From Anaeromyxobacter paludicola (GTDB lineage Bacteria > Myxococcota > Myxococcia > Myxococcales > Anaeromyxobacteraceae): a stretch of DNA of 64,000 bases. The position numbers were made by a program, and so were the translations under genes. The stretch is taken from the NCBI RefSeq assembly GCF_023169965.1, contig NZ_AP025592.1, positions 4,154,001-4,218,000 of the forward strand, read 5' to 3'. Below, piece by piece: positions 31,986 to 56,971 of the stretch. Below the pieces are notes generated by a model. That model was not told the DNA's origin. It worked only from the letters and a program-made list of their open reading frames with translations, and did no database searches. Position 1 is the first letter of the stretch, and every line of letters begins with the position of its first letter.

Positions 31986-32435
31986 TCACGGGCCGCGCTC
32001 CGGGCTTCCGGAGCGCGGCCGGACGGCGAGGAGCCCGGTCGACCAGAGCGCGGTCCGCTCGTCGATCCGGTCGCGCACGAGGGCGTGCAGCCCCCACAGC
32101 ATCGCTACCGCCAGGAGCGCGGAGACGAGCCGCCCCAGCGCCTCGTGCACGCCGAAGAGCGCGTAGAGCCAGGAGACGGACCAGGGATAGGCGGGGAGCT
32201 CCGTCTCGACGTAGCCGGGCCCGTCACCGGCCCAGTCGATCTGCGGGTAGAGGAGCCGGTGGCCGCCCTCGGCGAAGTTGCGCGCCATCGCGGCCGTGTC
32301 GCACTCGCGCCAGGAGCCGAACCCGAGCAGCGGCGCGTCGAGGTGCCAGAGCCGCACGGCGAGGCCGAGCGCGAGGAGCGCGAGGAGCGCGGCCCGGCTC
32401 GCCCACGGTGGAGTGCGTGCGCCGGGCTGGGACAT
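31986..32435 (-). pseudogene. Truncated GT39/ArnT-like membrane glycosyltransferase remnant
   Basis: 149 codons from an ATG at 32435. The N terminus (first helix about 13-29; then WHLDAPLLGFGSWRECDTAAMARNF) is typical of the start of dolichol-phosphate-mannose-type glycosyltransferases, with the acidic residue of the first periplasmic loop. Two more hydrophobic stretches follow (about 75-85 and 98-115). Family members have about 450 to 600 residues, so two thirds are missing. The frame ends in PRSGSPERGP, encoded by the gltBD hairpin itself, which shows that the end is not original. Most likely a deletion remnant; a real short protein is less likely. Confidence 0.6.
31991..32020 (+). terminator. 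Hairpin terminator candidate after gltBD
   Basis: A perfect 13-bp inverted repeat (GGCCGCGCTCCGG and its complement) encloses a GCTT loop. There is no T-tract, so it is a strong hairpin but not a textbook intrinsic terminator. It overlaps the 3' end of the opposing truncated glycosyltransferase ORF. Confidence 0.65.
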
Positions 32436-32638: not shown

Positions 32639-33676
32639 ATGACCCTGGCATCGGGAGAGCGGGGCAGTCCGGCGCGCCGCCTGGCGACGCTGGCCCTCGT
32701 CCTGCTCGCCGCCTGCCGGCCCGGCCCGCCGCCGTCGCGCCCGCTGGTGCTCGGCGCGCCCACGCTCCCCTCGCTGGGGCTCCTCGACGTCGCCCGCTTC
32801 GGCGGGGAGCGGGGCCGCGCCGGCGCGCGCGTCGAGCGGCGCGCCTACCAGAGCGGACGGGCCGCCCTCGACGCCCTGCTGGCGGGCCAGGTGGACCTGG
32901 CCGCCTGCTACGACATGGCGTTCGTGGTCGCCGCGCTCTCCCACCCCGAGCTCCGCGTCCTCACCTCGCTCCACCACGCCTCGGCCGGCACCGTGATCGT
33001 GACCCGGCGGGGCGGCGGCGTCGCGCGGCCGGAGGACCTGCGCGGCCGGCGGGTCGGCGTGCCGCGGGACACGAGCGCCGACTTCTTCCTCGAGACGCTG
33101 CTCAGGTTCGCCGGCGTGCCGACCGGCGAGGTCGAGCGGGTGGATCTCGCGCCCGAGGCGGCCGCGGCCGCGCTGGCCCGCGGCGAGGTGGCGGCGGTGG
33201 CGATCTGGTACCCCCAGGCGCGCAAGGTCCGGGAGGCGCTCCCTCCCGGCGAGGCGCTCGAGATCACCTCCGACGTCCACACCGAGGTCTCGATGCTGGT
33301 CGTCCGCGCCGACGTGCTGGCGGCCCGGGACGCCGAGGTGCGCGCGGTGGTCCGCGCCCTCTCGGAGGCGGAGTGGCTGGTTCAGCGGCGGCCCGACGAG
33401 GCCTTCGCGGCGCTCCGCCGCGCCTTCCCGGGGGAGCGGGAGGACGACCTGCGCGAGGACTGGGCCCGGGCCCGCCCCGAGCTCGGGCTGCGCAACGCGA
33501 TGCTGGCGGTGCTGGAGCGGGAGGCGCGCTGGGTGCTGCGCGAGCGCGGCCGGCCCGGTCCCGGCCCCGACTTCCGCGAGCTCTTCGCGCAGGGCCCGCT
33601 CACGGCGGCCGACCCGGAGGCGGTGACCGTCTACCCGGCGCTGCCGCCGCCGCTCGAGGAGGGCGACGCCCCGTGA
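32639..33676 (+). CDS. ABC-type substrate-binding lipoprotein (NMT1/SsuA-like)
   Basis: 345 aa. The signal peptide ends in the lipobox LLAAC with Cys26. The mature protein has the type II periplasmic-binding fold pattern of the nitrate/sulfonate/thiamine-precursor group: ALLAGQVDLAACYDMAFVVA (about 80-99), RGRRVGVPRDTSADFFLETLL (hinge and second lobe) and ARGEVAAVAIWYPQA. Such proteins normally serve an ABC permease and ATPase, but none is encoded beside it. Instead its stop codon overlaps the start of a histidine kinase gene, so it may present the ligand to that kinase. Ligand unknown. Confidence 0.82.
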   Translation: MTLASGERGSPARRLATLALVLLAACRPGPPPSRPLVLGAPTLPSLGLLDVARFGGERGRAGARVERRAYQSGRAALDALLAGQVDLAACYDMAFVVAALSHPELRVLTSLHHASAGTVIVTRRGGGVARPEDLRGRRVGVPRDTSADFFLETLLRFAGVPTGEVERVDLAPEAAAAALARGEVAAVAIWYPQARKVREALPPGEALEITSDVHTEVSMLVVRADVLAARDAEVRAVVRALSEAEWLVQRRPDEAFAALRRAFPGEREDDLREDWARARPELGLRNAMLAVLEREARWVLRERGRPGPGPDFRELFAQGPLTAADPEAVTVYPALPPPLEEGDAP

Positions 33677-35178
33677 GCCTCCGGCGCACCCTGGTCGTCC
33701 CCCAGCTGCTCCTCGGGGGCATCGCCCTCCTCGGCCTCGCCGGCATGGCGGTCGAGTCCTCCCGGCAGCTCGAGGTGCTGCAGCGGCGGGCGCACCAGGT
33801 CCGGACCGAGACGCAGCTCGTGGCCCGCCTGCAGGAGCTCTCGGGCATCTCCGAGCGGGCCACCCAGGCCTACCGCTTCGACCCGCGTCCGGAGCGGCTC
33901 GACGCCATCGAGCACGCCGAGCTCGAGACGGAGCAGATCGAGGCCGCCCTCGCCCGGCTCCCGAGCGGCTACCGGACCGCCGAGATCTGGGGCGAGTGCC
34001 TCGCGGCGCGCCAGGTCCAGTCGTCGCTCCGGAACGACCTGCTCCGGACGGTGAAGGAGGGCGACGAGGCGCTCATCGGAGGCCGGTTCGAGAAGTGGGT
34101 GATGGCGACCGACCTCTCGAGCGCGGTGCTGGCCGACCTCGCCGCGCTCACGAGCCGCCAGCTCGACACGGCGGTGGACCAGATCGACGCGCGGCGGTCC
34201 CGGGTGGTGTGGCTGCTCGGGACCTTGCTCGGCACGAGCGCGCTCCTCACCCTCGCCTACTCGCTCTTCGTGAGCCGCGAGGTGGTCCGGCCCCTGCGCG
34301 GCATGACCGCCACCGCCGAGCGGATCGCGCGCGAGGAGGTGGTCCTGCCGGTGCCGGGGCGGGGGCGGCGGGACGAGATCGGCGTCCTCGCCGAGGCGTT
34401 CGAGCGGATGACCGGCCACCTCTTCCGGGCCCGGGCCCGGCTCGAGGGCGCGGTCAAGGCGCGCGACGAGTTCCTCTCCATCGCCTCCCACGAGCTGCGC
34501 ACGCCGCTCACCTCGCTCGAGCTGCAGCTCGCGCTCCTGCAGCGGCGCGCCCTCGCCTCCGAGCCGGGCGACGAGCGCGCCCGGAGCGGGCTCGAGTCGG
34601 CCCTCCGGCAGGTCCGGCGGCTGGAGCGGCTCGTGGGGGAGCTGCTCGACGTGAGCCGGATCCAGGCCGGCAAGCTGCAGCTCGCGCGCGAGCGGGTGGA
34701 CCTCGGGGAGGTGGCCCGCGCGGTGGCGGCCCGCTTCGCGGCGGAGCTCGAGCGGAGCGGGATCGCCCTCGACGTCGTGGTCGAGCCGGGCGTGGTCGGC
34801 GAGTGGGACGGCGAGCGGCTCGACCGGGTGGTGAGCAACCTGCTCGCGAACGCCATCAAGTACGCCCCCGGCGGCGCGGCGACGCTCCGCGTGGACCGGC
34901 TGCCGGACGGCCGCGGGCGGCTGCAGCTCCAGGACGACGGGCCGGGGATCCCGCCCGAGGTCCAGGAGCGCATCTTCGAGCGCTTCGAGCGGGCCGACGG
35001 CCGGCGCGGCATCGCCGGGCTCGGCCTGGGGCTCTACATCGTGCGCCAGATCGTCGAGGCGCACGGCGGGAGCGTGGCGGTGCGGAGCGCGCCGGGCCAG
35101 GGCGCCACCTTCGTCGTGGAGCTGCCCGCCGCCGCCTGCGGGCAGGTGAGCGAGGGCGGGGGCGGCGCGCCGGCCTGA
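33673..35178 (+). CDS. Membrane sensor histidine kinase, partner of the upstream binding protein
   Basis: 501 aa, GTG start overlapping the preceding stop (GTGA). TM1 (about 7-26), a 150-residue helical periplasmic domain (about 28-177, CHASE3-like in appearance), TM2 (about 178-200) and a HAMP domain (about 201-255) come before the kinase core. The phospho-accepting site is SIASHELRTPL with His273; N box LLANAIKYA, G1 DDGPGIP and G2 GLGLGLYIV are intact. No response regulator gene is adjacent, so its output partner must be encoded elsewhere. It converges with the OFA transporter gene, with a 1-bp gap. Confidence 0.9.
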   Translation: MSLRRTLVVPQLLLGGIALLGLAGMAVESSRQLEVLQRRAHQVRTETQLVARLQELSGISERATQAYRFDPRPERLDAIEHAELETEQIEAALARLPSGYRTAEIWGECLAARQVQSSLRNDLLRTVKEGDEALIGGRFEKWVMATDLSSAVLADLAALTSRQLDTAVDQIDARRSRVVWLLGTLLGTSALLTLAYSLFVSREVVRPLRGMTATAERIAREEVVLPVPGRGRRDEIGVLAEAFERMTGHLFRARARLEGAVKARDEFLSIASHELRTPLTSLELQLALLQRRALASEPGDERARSGLESALRQVRRLERLVGELLDVSRIQAGKLQLARERVDLGEVARAVAARFAAELERSGIALDVVVEPGVVGEWDGERLDRVVSNLLANAIKYAPGGAATLRVDRLPDGRGRLQLQDDGPGIPPEVQERIFERFERADGRRGIAGLGLGLYIVRQIVEAHGGSVAVRSAPGQGATFVVELPAAACGQVSEGGGGAPA

Positions 35179-35179
35179 T

Positions 35180-36517
35180 TCAGCTCGCCCGCGCGCCCCG
35201 GTGGTGCAGGTGCAGCGCCTCCCCCCAGGCCTCGCCCGCGCGCCGGGCCCCCGGCTTGCGCGTGACGAGCGGCAGCAGGGTGGCCGCGAGCAGCAGCCCC
35301 CCGATCCACGGCAGCGCGCCGGAGAAGCTCCCGGTGTGGTCCTTCACCAGGGCCACGAAGATCGGGCCGACGATCCCGCCCACGCCCCAGGCGAGCAGGA
35401 TCCAGCCGTAGTTCACGCCCATGTACTTCGTGCCGAAGTAGTCGGCGGTGAAGGAGGGCATGGTCCCGAAGCCGCCGCCGTAGCAGAGCAGCACCACCGC
35501 GAAGAGGATGGTGACGATCGCGAGGGAGTGGATGCCGCCCACCAGGAAGAAGATGAGCACCTGCGAGCCGTAGATGAGCAGGTAGGCGAGGTTCCGGCCG
35601 ATGCGGTCCGAGACCGCGCCCCAGAAGAAGCGGCCGAGCCCGTTGAAGAGGGCGATGAAGCCGTAGATGGCGAGCGCCACGCCGGGGCTGGCGCCGGTGA
35701 GCTCGCGCATGATCGGCACCGCGTTGGAGATGAAGAGGATGCCGGCGGTGACGTTCAGGAAGAGCATGAACCAGAGGGCGTAGAACTGCGGCGTGCGCGC
35801 CGCCTCCGACGGCGGGTAGTCGCGCCCCTGCGCGGCGGCCGCGGCGACGGCCCCCGGGCGGGCGAAGCCGGCCGGCGGGTTGCGGACGAGGAGGGCGCAG
35901 GCGCCTCCCAGCAGGAGGTAGACCACCCCCGACCAGAGGAAGGTCTGCATGATGGTGGAGACCGCGTCCGGCGTCATCGCCGCCTCGACGCCGCGCGCCC
36001 GCTCCGCGAGCACCGCGCCGGCCTGGCGGGAGGCGGCCGAGAAGGAGGGGATGGCCTTGAGGAGGTTGTTGTAGAAGAACGCGCCCAGGCCGAACCCCAT
36101 CACCACCATGCCGCTGCCGAGGCCGCGCTTGTCGGGGAACCACTTCGTCACCACGGCCACCGGCGTGATGTAGGCCATGCCGAGCCCGATCCCGCCGACG
36201 AGGCCGTAGGTCAGGTAGATCCACCAGGCGCCGAGGGAGGTGGTGAGGAGCCCGGCGAGGATGTTGCCCACGCCCCAGAGCGCCACCCCGGTGACGGTGG
36301 GCCAGCGCGGCCCGGCGCGGTCCTGCCACCGCCCGCCGACGATGGCCCCCACGCCCAGGAAGAAGATGGCCAGGGCGAAGGTCCAGGTGGTGGTGGTGTT
36401 GCTCCAGCGGAAGCTGGCGATGAGCGGCTGGGTGAAGAGGCTCCACGAGTAGACCGTCCCCAGGCAGATCATGGTGATGGTCCCGGCCAAGGCGATGAGC
36501 CAGCGGTTGTTCGTCAC
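35180..36517 (-). CDS. OFA-family (oxalate/formate antiporter-like) MFS transporter
   Basis: 445 aa, GTG start with GGGGGA upstream. About twelve membrane helices. Family features include MICLGTVYSWSLFTQPL in helix 1, FFLGVGAIVGGRWQDRAGPR in the first conserved loop and YGLVGGIGLGMAYITPVAVV. OFA members move oxalate, formate, lactate or related monocarboxylates. Being last in an operon that begins with a formate channel and contains a formate dehydrogenase, formate or a related organic acid is a reasonable guess, but sequence alone does not fix the substrate. It lies 12 bp after moaA. Confidence 0.85.
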   Translation of the reverse strand: MTNNRWLIALAGTITMICLGTVYSWSLFTQPLIASFRWSNTTTTWTFALAIFFLGVGAIVGGRWQDRAGPRWPTVTGVALWGVGNILAGLLTTSLGAWWIYLTYGLVGGIGLGMAYITPVAVVTKWFPDKRGLGSGMVVMGFGLGAFFYNNLLKAIPSFSAASRQAGAVLAERARGVEAAMTPDAVSTIMQTFLWSGVVYLLLGGACALLVRNPPAGFARPGAVAAAAAQGRDYPPSEAARTPQFYALWFMLFLNVTAGILFISNAVPIMRELTGASPGVALAIYGFIALFNGLGRFFWGAVSDRIGRNLAYLLIYGSQVLIFFLVGGIHSLAIVTILFAVVLLCYGGGFGTMPSFTADYFGTKYMGVNYGWILLAWGVGGIVGPIFVALVKDHTGSFSGALPWIGGLLLAATLLPLVTRKPGARRAGEAWGEALHLHHRGARAS

Positions 36518-39700: not shown

Positions 39701-42700
39701 CTAGGTCCTCCTCGGCTCGACCGGCGGCTGGCGGTGCTTCGCGTGGAGCCCCGGGAGGTCGCGCGGCGCCTCGCCCTCGGCCGGGCGCGGCTCCTGGAGC
39801 GACGCCCCGCCCGTCGCGGCGCGCCGGCCGAAGGAGTGGCGGCCCGGGCGGATGTCGCCGGTGAGGGCCTTCGACTCCTGGATCGAGACGTTCGGATCGG
39901 CCACGAACCCGATGAGCTCGTTGGCCGGATCGCCGCGCACCCGCCCGACGTAGCTCCAGTGGTACGGCAGGCCGATGGTGTGGACGGTCCGCCCGCGCAC
40001 CGTGAGCGGCCGCAGCCGCCGCGTCACCAGCACCCGGCACTCGATCTCGCCGCGCGCCGTGGTGATCGTGGCCCAGCCGCCGTTGCGCAGCCCCTTCTCG
40101 CCGGCGAGCTCGGGCGAGACCTCGCAGAACATCTCCGGCTGAAGCTCGGAGAGCCAGGAGAGCCAGCGGCTCATGCCGCCCGCGGTGTGGTGCTCGGTGA
40201 GCCGCCAGGTGGTGAGGACGTAGGGGAACCGCCGGTCGCCGAAGGCCCGGTGGTAGGGGTTCTCGCGGCGGTGCCACTCCATGCGCGCCGGGTTGCACTG
40301 CTGCGGGTAGAGCGGGTTCTCCACCACCGACTCCTCCGGCTCGTAGTGGGTCGGGAGCGGCCCGTCGAGGAGCCCGGAGGGCGCGAAGAGCCAGCCCTTG
40401 CCGTCGGCCTGCATGATGAAGGCGTCGGTGCCGCCGATGCTGGCGAGCCCGACGGCCCCCTCCGGCGCGCGGTAGCTGGGCGGCTTGTCGAGCTGGAAGT
40501 CCGGCACGTCGTGGCCGGTCCACCTCCCCTGGGCCGCGTCCCACCAGACGAGCCGCTTGCGCTCCGACCAGGGCACGCCATCCGGATCGGCCGAGGCCCG
40601 GTTGTAGAGGATGCGCCGGTTCGACGGCCAGGCCCAGCCCCACTCCGGCGCCACCCAGTGCTGCTCGCCCTGCGGCTTGCGCCGCGCGGCCTGGTTCACG
40701 CCTCCGGCGTAGCAGCCGGAGTAGATCCAGCAGCCGCAGGCGGTGGAGCCGTCGTCGGCGAGCTTCGCGAAGCCCGGCACCGGCTCGCCGTCGGCGACGG
40801 TGAAGCCGTTCACCTCGAGGAGCACCCGCTCCGCGTCCGGCTCGGCGTGCGGCCCCGACTCGCCGTAGTCCCAGGTGAGCGCCTGGATGGCCCGGTCCTT
40901 CGGGTCGGCGGAGCCGGCGTAGAGCGCCTTGAGCCGCTTCCCGAGGTGGTAGGTGAAGTGGAGCTCGCTGCGGCAGTCCCCCGGCGGCGCGAGGGCCTGG
41001 TGGTGCCACTGCAGCATCCGCTGCGTGTTGGTGAAGGAGCCGCTCTTCTCGGTGTGGGTGGCCGCCGGGAAGAAGAAGACCTCGGTCTGGATCTCCTCGG
41101 TCCGCACCTCGCCGCGATCGATCTCGGGCGCGGTGCGCCAGAACTCCGCGGTCTCGGTGAGCGCGAAGTCGCGCACCACCAGCCACTCCAGCTTGCGCAG
41201 CCCCTCGCGGTGGAGGGCGCCGTGCATGGAGCCGACCGTGGGGTTCTCGCCCATCACGAAGTAGCCCTTGAGCTTGCCGTCGGCCATCTCGGAGACGGTC
41301 GTCATGTGCGAGTGGTTGCCGGTGAGGCGCGGCAGGAGGTCGAACAGGTAGTCGTTCTCCCGGGTGGCGGCGTCGCCGAACCAGGCCTTCTGGAGCGAGA
41401 CGACGTACTTGCGGAACTCGCTCCACCAGCCGGTGGCCGAGGCGTTGTTGTTCACGTACTGGTCGAGGCCGCGCTCGGGCAGCACCGCGTGCGGCATGGG
41501 CAGGTAGCCCGGCAGCAGGTCGAAGAGGGTGGGGATGTCGGTCGAGCCCTGGATCGAGGCGTGCCCGCGCAGCGCCATGATCCCGCCGCCCGGCCGGCCC
41601 ATGTTGCCGAGCAGGAGCTGGAGGATGGCCGCGGTGCGGATGTACTGCACCCCGACCGTGTGCTGGGTCCAGCCCACGGCGTAGCAGAAGGCCGCGGTCC
41701 GCTCGCGCCCGGAGTTCCGGCACAGCGTCTCGGCCACCTCGAGGAAGAGGGCCCGCGGGATGCCGCAGGTTTCCTCGACCACCTCGGGCGTGTAGCGGGA
41801 GAAGTGCCGCCGCAGGAGCTGGAAGACGCAGCGCGGGTGCTGCAGCGTGGGGTCGTTCTTCCGCTCCGTCATCTTCACGCCGCGCAGGTCGTGCCGGCCG
41901 GCGCCCTTCTCGCCGTAGACCTCCTTGTGCCCGGCGGCGGGGACCACGCCGTCCACCCCCTCGTAGGACCAGGTCTCCCAGCCGTACTTGTTCTTCTCCG
42001 CGTCGAACCCGCTGAAGAAGCCCTCGAGGTCCTCGGTGTCGCGGAAGCCCTCGTCGATGATCGTCGCCGCGTTGGTGTAGCTCGCCACGTACTCGTGGAA
42101 CCAGCGGTCGTTCTCGATGGCGTAGCGGATGATCCCGCCCAGGAAGGCGATGTCCGAGCCGGGGCGGATGGGGACGTGCAGGTCGGCGACCGCGCTGGTC
42201 CGCGTGAAGCGGGGATCGACGTGGATGATGGTCGCCCCGCGGTTCTTCGCCTCCATCACCCAGCGGAACGCCACCGGGTGGCACTCGGCCATGTTGGAGC
42301 CCTGCACCACCACGCAGTCGGAGTTCTGCAGGTCGGAGGGGAAGGTGGTGGCGCCGCCGCGGCCGAAGGAGATCCCCAGACCGGGGACCGTGGAGCTGTG
42401 TCAGATCCGCGCCTGGTTCTCCACCTGGACCACGCCGAGCGCGGTGTAGAGCTTCTTGAGCAGGTAGTTCTCCTCGTTGTCGAGGGTGGCGCCGCCGAGG
42501 TGGGCGATCCCGAGGGTGCGCCGGACGAGGTCGCCCTGGTGCTCCGCCCCCTCCTCCTCGACCCGCTCCTGCCAGGTCTCGTCGCGGGACCGCTTCACCC
42601 GCTCCGCCACCATCTCCATGGCCCGCTCGAGCGGGAGGGTCTCCCACTCGCGCCCGCCCGGGCGCCGGTAGAGCACCTGCTTCTCGCGGTGCGAGCCGGT

Positions 42701-42988
42701 GACGAGCTGGAAGGTGGCGGCGCCCTTCGGGCAGAGGCAGCCCTGCGACACCGGCGAGTCGGGGTCTCCCTCGACGTCGATGATCCGCTCGTCCTTCACG
42801 TAGACGAGCTGTCCGCAGCCGACGGCGCAGTACGGGCAGATCGAGCGGGCCACCCGGTCCGCGCGGGCGGTCCGCGGCGCGAGCTCGCGGGTCCGCGCGC
42901 TCGCGGCCGTGCCGTCGAGCCCCGTCGCGTCCCGCGCCGCGAGCTGCCGCAGCACCGGCCACTCCCCCAGCACCGGAAGCCTCGCCAT
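39701..42988 (-). CDS. fdhA: Formate dehydrogenase catalytic subunit, selenocysteine-containing (Mo/W-bis-MGD)
   Basis: 1095 aa if the TGA at 42401-42403 is read as selenocysteine 196; GAGGAGGGG lies 8 nt before the ATG. The 4Fe-4S motif is CPYCAVGCGQ (Cys51, 54, 58) with Cys86. The context ARI-Sec-HSSTVPGLG is the standard formate dehydrogenase active site, where Sec binds the metal and the following His assists catalysis. A SECIS hairpin follows at the right distance. The C-terminal dinucleotide-binding domain ends the protein. It oxidises formate to CO2. No Tat signal is present, so the active site probably faces the cytoplasm. An annotation that treats TGA as stop would split the gene. 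Confidence 0.95.
42371..42403 (-). promoter_or_regulatory. Selenocysteine UGA codon and bacterial SECIS hairpin in fdhA
   Basis: In the mRNA, UGA (42403-42401) is followed by 11 nt and then a 7-bp stem, GGUCCCC pairing with GGGGAUC (one G-U), that closes a GGUCU loop (42389-42371). The 11-nt distance and the GGUCU loop are the same as in the Escherichia coli fdhF SECIS element bound by SelB. The window does not contain selA, selB or selC. Confidence 0.9.
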
Positions 42989-43065
42989 GGTCTCACCCCT
43001 CCTCACGCTCGCCGAAATGTGGGGGCGGGCGCGGCGGAGCGGCAACGCGGGGCGGCGCAGGGCGG

Positions 43066-44839: not shown

Positions 44840-46864
<2,025 letters not shown>

Positions 46865-52774: not shown

Positions 52775-52806
52775 CGCCGTGGAGCCGCGCCCGGAATCGT
52801 CGGCCG

Positions 52807-52835
52807 TCCGAACGCGGCGTCGGAAAACCGAACGC
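52807..52835. promoter_or_regulatory. Candidate enhancer sites: direct repeats for the NtrC-type regulator
   Basis: CCGAACGCG occurs at 52807-52815 and 52827-52835, 20 bp apart centre to centre, about two helical turns. Between and across them is TCGG-AAAA-CCGA, a small inverted repeat. Relative to the proposed hlyD start these sites lie about 75 to 105 bp upstream, the usual place for sigma54 activator sites. Confidence 0.5.
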
Positions 52836-52884
52836 GACCTTCCGCCGCGCCGCCGCATCACCTCGCCCGCCGCGGCCCCCGCGC

Positions 52885-52900
52885 TGGCGCGCCGCTTGCT
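52885..52900 (+). promoter_or_regulatory. Candidate sigma54 promoter for the hlyD-ABC operon
   Basis: TGGCGCGCCGCTTGCT matches the sigma54 consensus TGGCACG-N4-TTGCW with one mismatch and the exact GG-N10-GC spacing. Transcription would start near 52911, leaving a 40-nt leader with GGAGGAGG before the hlyD ATG. Confidence 0.65.
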
Positions 52901-52950
52901 CCTGCGGGGCGCGAGGCACCCGCCGGCGCGGGCGCCCCGGAGGAGGTCGC

Positions 52951-53991
52951 ATGCGGCGCATGCTGGTCGTCGGGCTCGTGCTGGTCGGGGTGCTCGCGGG
53001 GGTCCTCGCCTGGCGGCTGCGCGCCCAGTCGCGCGCGGCGCACGGACCGGCCGGCGGCACGGGGGAGATCGAGGGCACCGCCGTGGACCTCGCCTCGCGC
53101 CTCACCGCCCGCCTCGCCGCCGTGGCGGTCCGCAAGGGGCAGGTGGTCCGACAGGGCGAGCTCGTCGCCACCTTCGACTGCGCCGACACCCGGGCCGCCC
53201 TCGCCGAGGCCGAGGGGCGCGCGGCGCTCGCGGCGGCCCAGGCCGAGGTGGCCCGGTCCCAGCAGAGCTCCTCCGGGGACGCCGAGCGCGCCGCCCAGGC
53301 CGCCGCGTCGGCGGCCGACGCCCAGTCGGCCTCGCTGCTCGCGCAGCGGGACGCGGCGAGCCGGCAGGCGGCCCGGCTCGAGAAGCTCGGCGACGACGTG
53401 CCGTTCGCCACGCGGGACCAGAGCCGGGCGCAGGCCGACGGGCTCGCGGCCCAGCTCGAGGCGGCCCGCGCCCAGGCCGGAGCGGCGCGGCGGCAGGCCG
53501 CGGCGGCCCGGAGCACCGCCTCCGGCGCGGCCGGGCAGGTCCGGGCGGCGGAGGCGAGCCTCGCCGCCGCCCGAGGCACGGCGGAGCGGGCCCGGCTGCT
53601 CGCGGCCGAGTGCGAGCTGCGCGCCCCCCGCGACGCGGTGGTGTCCGAGCTGCCGCACGAGCCCGGCGAGCTCCTCGCCCCCGGGCAGGTGGTGGCGCGG
53701 CTCGTCGATCTGGCCGAAGTGAAGGCCACCTTCTACCTGCCCAACGCCGAGGTCGGCGCGGCGCGGCCCGGCGCGCGGGCGCAGGTGCGCGCCGACGCCT
53801 TCCCGGGCGAGGCCTTCGAGGGGAGGGTGGCCTCGGTCGCCGCCGAGGCCGAGTTCACGCCGAGGAACATCCAGACCCGCTCCGACCGCGACCGGCTCGT
53901 CTACCCGGTGGAGGTCCGGCTCCCGAACCCGGGCCTGAAGCTCCGGCCCGGCATGCCGGTCGAGGTGATCCTCCCCGGCACGGAGCGCTGA
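52951..53991 (+). CDS. HlyD-family membrane fusion (periplasmic adaptor) protein
   Basis: 346 aa from the ATG at 52951, with GGAGGAGG a few bases upstream. One N-terminal membrane anchor (about 4-24). The lipoyl half-motifs flank a long Ala/Gln/Arg-rich coiled coil (about 90-215, which should span the periplasm); GQVVARLVDLAEVKATFYLPNAEVG is the second lipoyl/beta-barrel block, and PGMPVEVILPG closes the barrel domain. It connects the inner-membrane ABC exporter to TolC. The TGA stop shares one base with the ATG of the ATPase gene. Confidence 0.92.
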   Translation: MRRMLVVGLVLVGVLAGVLAWRLRAQSRAAHGPAGGTGEIEGTAVDLASRLTARLAAVAVRKGQVVRQGELVATFDCADTRAALAEAEGRAALAAAQAEVARSQQSSSGDAERAAQAAASAADAQSASLLAQRDAASRQAARLEKLGDDVPFATRDQSRAQADGLAAQLEAARAQAGAARRQAAAARSTASGAAGQVRAAEASLAAARGTAERARLLAAECELRAPRDAVVSELPHEPGELLAPGQVVARLVDLAEVKATFYLPNAEVGAARPGARAQVRADAFPGEAFEGRVASVAAEAEFTPRNIQTRSDRDRLVYPVEVRLPNPGLKLRPGMPVEVILPGTER

Positions 53992-54746
53992 TGCCGGCCG
54001 CGCTCGTGGCCCGGGAGCTGCGCCGGCGCTTCGGGCCGGTGGAGGCGCTCGCCGGGCTCGGCTTCGAGGTCGCGGCGGGGGAGCTCTACGGTCTCGTCGG
54101 CCCGGACGGCGCCGGCAAGACCACCGCGCTGCGGGCCCTCGCCGGCCTGGTGCGGCTCGACGCCGGCGAGGTCCGCGTCCTCGGGCAGGACCCGGCGGGC
54201 GGCGGCGAGGTGCGCGAGCGGCTCGGGATGATGCCGCAGCAGTACAGCCTCTACGGCGATCTCTCCGTGGCGGAGAACCTCGCCTTCTTCGCGCGCCTCT
54301 ACGCCCTGCCGCGCGCCACCTTCCGCGAGCGCGCCCGGCGGCTCCTCGCCCTCACCCGGCTCGACCGCTTCCGGGAGCGGCGCGCCGAGGCGCTCTCGGG
54401 CGGCATGTACAAGAAGCTCGCCCTCGCCTGCGCGCTCCTGCACGAGCCGGCGGTGCTGCTCCTCGACGAGCCGACCACCGGCGTCGATCCGGTGAGCCGG
54501 CGCGAGCTCTGGGCGCTGCTCCACGAGTTCGTGCACGGCGGCATGGCGGTGCTGGTGACCACGCCGTACATGGACGAGGCCGAGCGCTGCGACCGGGTCG
54601 GGCTGGTCCACCGGGGGCGGCTCCTCGAGGAGGGCGCGCCGCGCGATCTCGTGGACCGCTACGCCGCCGAGGGGCGCCCGGGGCGCCACGGCGGGGCGCC
54701 CGACTTCGAGGACCTGTTCGTCGCCCGGGTGGAGGGGCGCGCGTGA
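53991..54746 (+). CDS. ABC exporter ATPase subunit
   Basis: 251 aa. Walker A GPDGAGKTT (about 37-45), Q-loop MMPQQYSLYGDLSV, signature LSGGMYKKLALA, Walker B LLLDEPTTGVDP and the H-loop region VTTPYMDEA. The switch position reads TTPYMDEAE, with Pro where His usually stands. This Pro is also seen in the first ATPase domain of related twin-ATPase exporters, where it suggests a catalytically weaker site. It matches the first ATPase domain of RbbA/YbhF-type exporters. It overlaps the next gene by 4 bp. Confidence 0.9.
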   Translation: MPAALVARELRRRFGPVEALAGLGFEVAAGELYGLVGPDGAGKTTALRALAGLVRLDAGEVRVLGQDPAGGGEVRERLGMMPQQYSLYGDLSVAENLAFFARLYALPRATFRERARRLLALTRLDRFRERRAEALSGGMYKKLALACALLHEPAVLLLDEPTTGVDPVSRRELWALLHEFVHGGMAVLVTTPYMDEAERCDRVGLVHRGRLLEEGAPRDLVDRYAAEGRPGRHGGAPDFEDLFVARVEGRA

Positions 54747-56971
54747 GCGGCCCGGCCGTGGTGGCGCGCGACCTCACGCGCCGGTTCGGCGGGTTCACCG
54801 CCGTGGACCGGGTCTCGTTCGAGGTGGAGCGCGGGGAGATCTTCGGCTACCTGGGCGCGAACGGGGCCGGGAAGAGCACCACCATCCGGATGCTCACCGG
54901 CCTGCTCGCCCCGAGCGGCGGGGAGGCGCGGGTGGCGGGGCACGACGTGCTCGCCCAGCCGGAGCGGGTGAAGAGCGCCATCGGGTACATGTCGCAGAAG
55001 TTCTCGCTCTACCTCGACCTGCCGGCGGGCGAGAACCTGCGCTTCTTCGCCGGGGCGCAGGGGCTCGCCGGCCGCGCCCGGGCGGTCCGCGCCGAGGAGG
55101 TGCTCGAGCGGGTGGGGCTGCGGGGCCGCGAGGCGGAGCCGACCGGCGCGCTTCCGGGTGGCGCGCGCCAGCGGCTCGCGCTCGGGTGCGCCATCCTCCA
55201 CCGCCCGGAGGTGCTCTTCCTGGACGAGCCGACCGCTGGGGTGGACCCGCTCGCCCGCCGCGACTTCTGGGCGCTCATCCGCGAGCTCGCCGCCGGGGGC
55301 ACCACCGTCTTCGTCACCACCCACTACCTCGACGAGGCCGAGTACTGCCGCCGCATCGGCCTGATGGTGGACGGCCGGCTCGTGGCGCTCGACTCCCCGG
55401 CGGCGCTCAAGGCGCGCTGGGTGCCCGGGGTGGTGCTGGTGGCCCGCGGGCGCGGGCTCGCGCCGGAGGCGCTGCGGCGGCTGCCCGGCGTGCTCGCCGC
55501 CGAGCCGTTCGGGGCCGGCCTCCACGTGCGCATCGACCCGGCGCGGCTCGCGCCGGCGCAGGTGGAGACGGCGCTCCGCGGCGCCGGGGCGCAGGGGCTC
55601 GTGCTCGCGCCGGCGGCGCCCAGCCTGGAGGACGTGTTCCTGGCGGTGGTCGGCGGTGGCGCCGGCCCCGAGGCGCCGCGCCCCCTCCCTGGCCCTCCCC
55701 CGCTGCGCGGGAGAGGGGAAGAGGGCGGCGCGGGGAGCGAGGAGGACGCAGCGGGGACCGAGCGTGGGCTGCGCCCCGCGGACCTCCCTCCCCGCCGGGC
55801 GGGGAGGGCAGGGGAGGGGCGGCCAGCAGGCGCCGCGACGCCCGCCGCGCCGGGCCGGGCGGCCCGCTTCCTCGGACGCGTCGCCGCCATGTCCTTCAAG
55901 GAGGCGCTCCACATCCGGCGCGATCCGCGCACGCTCTACCTCGCGCTGGTCATGCCGGTGGTGATGCTCCTCCTCTTCGGCTACGGGGTGAGCTTCGACG
56001 TCGATCACCTGCGGCTCGCGGTGGCCGACGCCGACCGGACCGCCGCCTCGCGCGCGCTCGTCCGGGCCTTCACCACCGCCGGCGAGTTCGACCGGGTGGC
56101 CGAGGTGGACCCGGACCGGGCCGACGACGTCTTCCGGCGGGCGCGCGCGGCGGCGGTGCTGGTGGTCCCGCGCGGCTACGAGGAGCGGCTCGCGGGCGGC
56201 CGGCCGGCGCAGGCGGAGCTGCTCGTGGACGGCTCGGACGGGAACACCGCCAACCAGATCCTGGCCAAGGCCGACGCCATCGCCCGGGACGAGGCGCGGC
56301 GGCTCGCCGGCGGCGCGGCCCGGCCGCCGCTCGAGGTCCAGGTGCTGACGCGCTACAACCCGGGCGGCCGGTCCGCCGTCTACCTCGTGCCCGGGCTCGC
56401 GGCCTACCTGCTCGCCATCGCCGCGGTGCTCCTCACCGCGCTCACGGTGGCGGGCGAGTGGGAGCGCGGCTCGATGGAGCAGCTCTTCGCGTCGCCGGTG
56501 AGCCGGCTCGAGATCGTGCTCGGGAAGCTCTTGCCCTACCTCGCCATCGGGCTCGTGCAGCTCCTGCTCGTCATCGCGGTGGGCGCGGTGGTCTTCGAGG
56601 TGCCGATCGTGGGGAGCGTGGCGCTCCTGTTCGCCCTCGGGCTCCTCTTCCTCGCCGGGATGCTGGCGCAGGGGCTCCTCATCTCGGTCGTCACCCGCAA
56701 CCAGCTCGTGGCCACCCAGGCCGGCGCGCTCTCCTCCCTGCTGCCCTCGATGCTCCTCTCCGGCATGCTCTTCCCCATCGAGAACATGCCGGCGCCGCTG
56801 CGGGCGCTCTCGCGCGTGGTCCCGGCGCGCTACCTCGTCCACGGGCTGCGCGGGGCGATGCTGAAGGGGAACGGGCTCGCGGTGCTCTGGCCGGACCTCC
56901 TCGCCCTCGCCGTGTTCGCCGTGGCGGTGGTGGCGCTCGCCACGGCGCGCTTCCAGCGGAGGCTGGCGTGA
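54743..56971 (+). CDS. ABC ATPase-permease fusion protein with a repeat-derived linker
   Basis: 742 aa, GTG start. Residues 1-310 are an ABC ATPase: Walker A GANGAGKST (about 38-46), Q-loop YMSQKFSLYLDLP, signature LPGGARQRLALG (Pro for the usual Ser), Walker B LFLDEPTAGVDP and H-loop VTTHYLDEA. Residues 312-362 are encoded by an inverted copy of the interspersed palindromic repeat and are low-complexity Pro/Gly/Arg. Residues about 375-742 are an ABC-2 permease: first helix VMPVVMLLLFGYGV, a large extracytoplasmic loop, then five C-terminal helices. Fusion of the second ATPase to a permease resembles RbbA; here the first ATPase is separate. Confidence 0.9.
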   Translation: MSGPAVVARDLTRRFGGFTAVDRVSFEVERGEIFGYLGANGAGKSTTIRMLTGLLAPSGGEARVAGHDVLAQPERVKSAIGYMSQKFSLYLDLPAGENLRFFAGAQGLAGRARAVRAEEVLERVGLRGREAEPTGALPGGARQRLALGCAILHRPEVLFLDEPTAGVDPLARRDFWALIRELAAGGTTVFVTTHYLDEAEYCRRIGLMVDGRLVALDSPAALKARWVPGVVLVARGRGLAPEALRRLPGVLAAEPFGAGLHVRIDPARLAPAQVETALRGAGAQGLVLAPAAPSLEDVFLAVVGGGAGPEAPRPLPGPPPLRGRGEEGGAGSEEDAAGTERGLRPADLPPRRAGRAGEGRPAGAATPAAPGRAARFLGRVAAMSFKEALHIRRDPRTLYLALVMPVVMLLLFGYGVSFDVDHLRLAVADADRTAASRALVRAFTTAGEFDRVAEVDPDRADDVFRRARAAAVLVVPRGYEERLAGGRPAQAELLVDGSDGNTANQILAKADAIARDEARRLAGGAARPPLEVQVLTRYNPGGRSAVYLVPGLAAYLLAIAAVLLTALTVAGEWERGSMEQLFASPVSRLEIVLGKLLPYLAIGLVQLLLVIAVGAVVFEVPIVGSVALLFALGLLFLAGMLAQGLLISVVTRNQLVATQAGALSSLLPSMLLSGMLFPIENMPAPLRALSRVVPARYLVHGLRGAMLKGNGLAVLWPDLLALAVFAVAVVALATARFQRRLA
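55677..55827 (-). repeat. Interspersed palindromic repeat (A+B, inverted) inside a coding region
   Basis: Part B, inverted, is at 55677-55722 and part A, inverted, at 55784-55827, with a 61-bp spacer against 23 bp in the copy at 24522-24634. It lies in frame in the ATPase-permease fusion gene and keeps the frame open. Identity to the other copies is obvious by eye over both arms. Confidence 0.85.

Follow-up and report, generated by a model that had tools for sequence, protein, structure and literature searches.

What does a substrate-binding protein do when its gene overlaps that of a sensor kinase and no transporter gene lies beside it? Such a pair is found in Anaeromyxobacter paludicola, within the 64,000-nucleotide stretch analysed here (the window, positions 4154001-4218000 of a complete 4.59-Mb genome). 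An earlier note on this DNA proposed that the two proteins form a two-part receptor. We find that the genes are co-inherited over two phyla without an adjacent transporter, and thus the pair most likely makes up one two-part receptor. We consider it probable that the lipoprotein serves signalling only and docks on the kinase at its four-helix domain, and that the response regulator is encoded elsewhere.

Organization of the gene pair

The features of the locus are listed by coordinates in the window.

32639..33676, + strand: NMT1/SsuA-superfamily binding protein, a lipoprotein of 345 aa (P0001); Pfam NMT1, with TauA and SsuA as best solved relatives
32639..32716, + strand: signal peptide and lipobox LLAAC, ending at the codon of the lipidated Cys26 (32714-32716); from the sequence
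33566..33637, + strand: C-terminal clade signature (PDF...ADPEAVTVY); from the alignment, and unaligned in transporter-linked homologues
33657..33662, + strand: AGGAGG, the kinase's ribosome-binding site, located within the binding-protein gene; from the sequence
33673..33676, + strand: GTGA overlap of 4 bp between the kinase start GTG and the binding-protein stop; from the sequence
33673..35178, + strand: sensor histidine kinase of 501 aa with a GTG start (P0002); HAMP, HisKA and HATPase_c above cut-off
33754..34203, + strand: kinase periplasmic domain (about residues 28-177), a predicted four-helix bundle of no Pfam family; from transmembrane helices and AlphaFold2
34267..34422, + strand: HAMP linker; PF00672, 41.1 bits
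34459..34671, + strand: HisKA with phospho-acceptor His273 (34489-34491); PF00512, 58.7 bits; H273 invariant in the alignment of relatives
34807..35133, + strand: HATPase_c with intact N, G1 and G2 boxes; PF02518, 111 bits

The kinase gene is an intact open reading frame whose start is overlapped by the lipoprotein stop, and the AGGAGG lies 10 nt upstream of its start codon. The GTGA overlap and the same arrangement in homologues suggest that the two genes form one transcription unit and are co-transcribed; a promoter scan at the locus found none. The earlier description of the genes as "fused by operon overlap" holds for this translational overlap, but no fused protein exists. In the kinase, which has transmembrane helices at residues 7-25 and 178-196, residues N389, D421, G423, G425, G449, G451 and G453 are invariant in the alignment of relatives, so the catalytic residues are intact.

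Upstream of the pair lie gltBD and a glycosyltransferase gene fragment, and downstream lies a convergent MFS gene. The fragment (31986-32435, - strand; 149 aa, whole ORF to 32651), which sits between gltD and the binding-protein gene and covers just the beginning of a PMT_2 glycosyltransferase domain, is probably a gene remnant. The MFS protein (35180-36517, - strand) scores 359.5 against a cut-off of 320 with the L-lactate transporter model NF049980, and is encoded near moaA and formate dehydrogenase genes. The formate dehydrogenase alpha gene (39701-43045, - strand) is split by an in-frame TGA at residue 215 (context ARI-U-HSS), readthrough of which yields a single open frame; by its context this TGA appears to sit at the usual selenocysteine site. 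No tRNA genes, and hence no tRNA-Sec, were found in the 64-kb window. A ligand assignment from these neighbors was considered and rejected, as gltBD, the lactate-type MFS gene and moaA are common only to the sister genome and other lineages differ. The sister pair has a lipoprotein 58% identical to that of A. paludicola and a sensor domain ~70% identical.

Family and fold of the binding protein

The binding protein matches Pfam NMT1 (PF09084) at 56.9 bits (cut-off 20.5), NMT1_2 at 46.6 bits and Phosphonate-bd at 46.1 bits. It reaches the curated cut-off of the NMT1/THI5-like superfamily and scores below the family cut-offs of SsuA (101.6 vs 163.5) and TauA (64.9 vs 304). Its best solved relatives are TauA, SsuA and HMP-binding proteins, and it also resembles Thi5-type proteins; its AlphaFold2 model is of low confidence (mean pLDDT 69.5), being poorest over the C-terminal 60 residues. 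All of its matches are to type II families and none to the type I sugar type, which, with LLAAC at Cys26, confirms the lipobox and type II fold first noted from the sequence. By analogy, the small anion or amine proposed as ligand (nitrate, taurine or a pyrimidine) fits the NMT1/SsuA superfamily.

Absence of a transporter and of an adjacent regulator

In the complete genome, the nearest matches to the permease family PF00528 (BPD_transp_1) are located ~66 kb downstream and ~84 kb upstream of the pair. The claim that no ABC permease or ATPase gene is near is correct; other ABC ATPase-like ORFs are present in the window, but at a distance of at least 9.7 kb (44840-46864 and 52779-56971). Could the lipoprotein be a true uptake protein for a remote permease, with the kinase sensing alone and the adjacency being regulatory or accidental? 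About 15 BPD_transp_1 permease domains are available elsewhere in the genome, and the fold family is mostly one of transport. However, the genome encodes only two other NMT1 proteins, each of which adjoins a permease of its own, and the whole clade to which the lipoprotein belongs (see below) has no importers beside it and diverges in step with the kinase sensor domain, making this explanation very unlikely. A transporter partner for the lipoprotein was rejected on the positions of permeases throughout the genome together with the gene context of the clade.

No response regulator gene lies beside the pair in the A. paludicola genome or in its nearest relative. The nearest receiver domain is ~14.5 kb away and is part of a hybrid kinase; the whole genome encodes roughly 127 such domains. 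The kinase can therefore be called an orphan here, with no receiver domain within ~14 kb, but the term does not extend to all of its homologues, some of which are hybrid kinases or have an adjacent single-domain regulator.

Co-conservation of the binding protein and kinase

A profile of the binding protein was searched against 195 Myxococcota genomes, then 84,980 species genomes, and then 297 genomes of a second phylum. Nine of the 195 Myxococcota genomes contain a match above 165 bits, with the remainder at or below 83 bits except for a contig-end fragment (90.6 bits, G018), and in all nine the gene is directly upstream of a kinase. The nine are A. paludicola and a second member of its genus (G001), four genomes of genus g3 (G003, G008, G016 and G019), G018, and two genomes of another family (G149 and G150). 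Weaker Myxococcota relatives almost all adjoin ABC permeases or ATPases, save one group (clade C, below). The scan of 84,980 genomes added one distant match, L090, in a groundwater "Deltaproteobacteria" genome, with a kinase 10 bp downstream that is of the HisKA_3 (NarX) class by sequence. A plasmid search returned, among the matches listed, only distant ones of less than 30% identity.

Scores in the second phylum are bimodal, at or above 167 bits or at or below 130 bits. The higher group spans the whole profile, including the C-terminal "V.PEAVTI" motif, and the lower matches mostly stop near model position 270, where clade members reach 322-326; nine of 11 low scorers with context examined are ABC-linked. 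The pairing is not due to chance, being kept in a second phylum as well as in nine of the 195 Myxococcota genomes.

This co-inheritance is strict across the clade, which comprises 45 genes scoring above 165 bits, at 38 loci. Forty-one of these directly precede a protein with two membrane helices ~145 residues apart. Of the other four, the one at L150 is followed by a receiver-domain protein and the remaining three by a further clade copy, in tandem arrays with such a kinase at the end. It had been stated in advance that the receptor proposal would fail if orthologs usually lay beside ABC permeases. None of the 45 genes adjoins an ABC importer, and no importer genes were found in the clade loci outside the window.

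The 41 partners, a few of them cut by contig ends, contain HAMP (38), HATPase_c (35), HisKA (21), HisKA_3 (12) and receiver (6) domains. The kinase class thus varies between HisKA, HisKA_3 and hybrid forms while the sensor domain is kept. Outputs vary likewise, from the hybrid kinases of Anaeromyxobacter to NtrC-like or single-domain regulators encoded nearby. One partner kinase in the alignment of L094-L152 kinases has an HD_5 match, which by sequence suggests a phosphodiesterase-type output. The tandem arrays place two or three binding-protein genes before one kinase (L140, 2955-7798; L097, 5418-9446; L145, 2570-6271, with one copy broken), and in these one kinase could read several ligands. 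L178 (G200:C119) departs from the tandem order: at the edge of a contig, the binding-protein gene faces a sensor-domain fragment in convergent orientation.

A lipobox is present in all full-length Myxococcota members of the clade and, by a simple regular expression, in 25 of 43 members overall; several members without one have an uncleaved-looking N-terminal helix instead. Clade members would therefore usually be membrane-tethered, by lipid or by a signal anchor, which would suit a protein kept close to its kinase.

Reverse search, co-divergence and phylogeny

The converse search queried the genomes with a profile built from the kinase sensor domain. A binding-protein gene adjoins 26 of 26 loci with a sensor score of at least 58 bits vs none of 18 loci at or below 47 bits, many of which have an adjacent response regulator instead. 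Most of the high scorers contributed to the sensor profile. Eight had no part in it, seven of them scoring 72-146 bits and the eighth, a fragment at the edge of a contig, 58 bits; all eight adjoin the binding protein, convergently in G200. The search for co-conserved pairs that the earlier note had called for thus supports the pairing in both directions. One further high scorer, at G242:C151:2184-2780 beside L142, is an additional kinase with this sensor domain, encoded immediately after the first, and a single binding protein may serve both.

Gene adjacency alone can mislead, so a test of co-divergence matters: in Pseudomonas aeruginosa, the solute-binding proteins encoded near AgtS and AruS failed to activate these kinases (PMC11113362), a precedent that by analogy would count against a receptor. 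In a mirror-tree comparison of 39 pairs, binding-protein distances correlate with those of the periplasmic domain at r 0.81 (permutation p 0.0002), a value to which shared descent adds, and with those of the cytoplasmic part, a control with the same descent but with distances partly saturated by architecture changes, at r 0.22. Partial correlations (n=39) are 0.80 for the periplasmic domain and -0.04 for the cytoplasmic part, and within the second phylum alone the values are 0.58 vs 0.11. The signal fails within G242, a single genome with four pairs (r -0.45, not significant). Thus, the orthologs lie directly upstream of kinases with the same periplasmic domain and co-diverge with that domain, in support of the proposed two-part receptor.

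In a maximum-likelihood tree of 71 binding proteins, 43 clade members fall on one side of a branch with support of 100/99, recovered in every bootstrap tree, and apart from 22 ABC-linked homologs. The ABC-linked rows were picked from weaker matches, so the sharpness of this boundary is partly a matter of choice. Six further kinase-linked binding proteins from other Myxococcota (clade C; L088 and L155-L159) form a separate group (100/100). Their genes precede a longer PAS/GAF-type kinase with a different sensor, mostly with a 4-bp overlap, which suggests, at the level of sequence, a second, independent recruitment.

The kinase periplasmic domain

AlphaFold2 predicts kinase residues 28-177 to be all-helical in a four-helix arrangement (pLDDT 77), in agreement with the helical periplasmic domain of ~150 residues originally described. 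None of 34 members scores above any Pfam cut-off in this domain, and comparison with solved structures found no convincing sequence relation. The nearest solved chains include the sensor of Adeh_2942 (4k0d), NarQ, LytS of the XylFII complex and QseE of the QseG complex, and chemoreceptor bundles are alike. The match to LytS (5xsj_L) has Z 13.5, TMt 0.82 and 120 aligned residues at 2.2 A; the baseline for helical bundles is Z ~13, and the fold matches thus show fold class only. The top Foldseek match, 4k0d, was rejected as a relative, as it was missed by sequence search and no link to a binding protein was found for it. A predicted four-helix bundle of the kind present in known accessory-protein-driven kinases would favor the receptor reading.

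Four-helix sensors such as NarX and McpN can bind their ligands directly. The domain studied here might do the same, as in NarX, NarQ and McpN, with the lipoprotein as a delivery or inhibitory accessory, for example one that keeps the kinase inactive as long as it carries no ligand. The likeness of the sensor fold to NarQ and the chemoreceptor bundles and the presence of conserved sensor Arg residues are consistent with this, but most sensor positions are divergent and a dedicated binding protein with a ligand-pocket fold always accompanies the domain. We judge direct binding by the kinase to be unlikely.

The lipoprotein might also bind no small ligand and instead report on the state of the envelope, in the manner of QseG with QseE or of RcsF in the Rcs system. 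A lipoprotein combined with a four-helix-bundle kinase is indeed the plan of QseG-QseE (PMC12691602), and 9m08 chain C is among the structural matches of the sensor model. QseG, however, has no binding-protein fold. In the lipoprotein the two-lobe fold core is kept and conserved, including the loop preceding the helix that in SsuA-type proteins binds the anion, and we give an envelope-state accessory little credence.

Strong conservation within the second phylum is seen at Tyr, Phe and Leu positions of the sensor domain and at an "EERP..Q" patch close to the first bend. Predicted to lie far from the membrane, this patch is a candidate docking site for the lipoprotein.

Comparison with known systems

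XylFII is a binding protein of the sugar type (type I), and TorT and LuxP belong to a binding-protein superfamily other than the NMT1/SsuA type. Activation by a binding protein is known for about ten sensor kinases (PMC9602780). Established systems include LuxP-LuxQ and TorT-TorS (PMC6321045), XylFII-LytS, BctC-BctE (PMC9602780) and AioX (PMC5908839). The pair resembles TorT-TorS and LuxP-LuxQ in that the kinase would be activated via a periplasmic binding protein (PMC6321045). The LuxP-LuxQ model put forward earlier is apt in principle but not in structure: the LuxQ sensor is PAS-like, whereas that of the pair is predicted to be all-helical, and its predicted four-helix bundle brings LytS/XylFII, TorS/TorT and QseE/QseG nearer. 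XylFII-LytS of Clostridium joins a signalling-dedicated binding protein to a kinase with a helical-bundle sensor (PDB 5xsj), a plan that the pair may share, but no sequence relation to the pair was found. QseG is a lipoprotein encoded with a four-helix-bundle kinase, QseE, that it binds and activates (PMC12691602); it differs in not being a solute-binding protein, and the gene order and regulator differ as well.

AioX-AioS-AioR and ArrXSR resemble the pair in that one operon, kept across phyla, encodes both a kinase and a type II binding protein that serves sensing rather than transport (PMC5908839). In contrast to the pair, which has no regulator gene within ~14 kb, the AioXSR and ArrXSR clusters include one, and AioX belongs to a PhnD-like oxyanion group; the binding protein matches ArrX at E 0.17 only, and its Phosphonate-bd score is lower than its NMT1 score. 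SsuA and TauA, binding proteins of sulfonate ABC systems, represent its nearest superfamily in fold and sequence, but the lipoprotein has no permease or ATPase partner and scores under their family cut-offs. CuaD of Ruminiclostridium (PMC10384115) and BctC-BctE (PMC9602780) also signal from a binding protein via a two-component system, but they lie beside or within a transporter system and involve other binding-protein families. By the features tested, the pair appears to work like the binding-protein-activated kinases without being a member of the LuxP, AioXSR or SsuA families.

Proposed mechanism and significance

For the two-part receptor, we infer ligand capture, docking, a direction of effect and a regulator's identity along the following lines. 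The lipoprotein, held by its lipid at the periplasmic face of the membrane, would capture a small ligand between its two lobes and then either dock on the dimeric kinase at its four-helix periplasmic domain or shift its contact there. By way of the second membrane helix and the HAMP linker, the resulting movement would reach HisKA/HATPase_c and alter autophosphorylation on His273, from which phosphate would be transferred to a response regulator encoded elsewhere in the genome. The binding protein would serve signalling only and would no longer feed an importer.

We lean, by a small measure, toward the broader view that these pairs form a large, undescribed receptor family of the Myxococcota and a second "deltaproteobacterial" phylum. 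In such a family, an NMT1 subfamily would have left transport once and become tied to a dedicated four-helix docking domain that has no Pfam entry, and this unit would then have been put into varied kinase classes, some with two or three binding proteins per kinase, so that several ligands could be read. No description of this binding-protein/kinase family was found in the literature searched, which consisted mostly of papers outside subscription.

In conclusion, while the principle of binding-protein-activated kinases is known, a dedicated family of pairs spanning two phyla is new and apparently undescribed. As the clade keeps its input unit and changes the kinase, it supplies numerous natural replicates with which the docking surface could be mapped and ligands identified. 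The clade also indicates that an NMT1-type protein with the annotation "ABC transporter substrate-binding protein" may be a receptor, in which case transport would be mis-assigned in environmental genomes.
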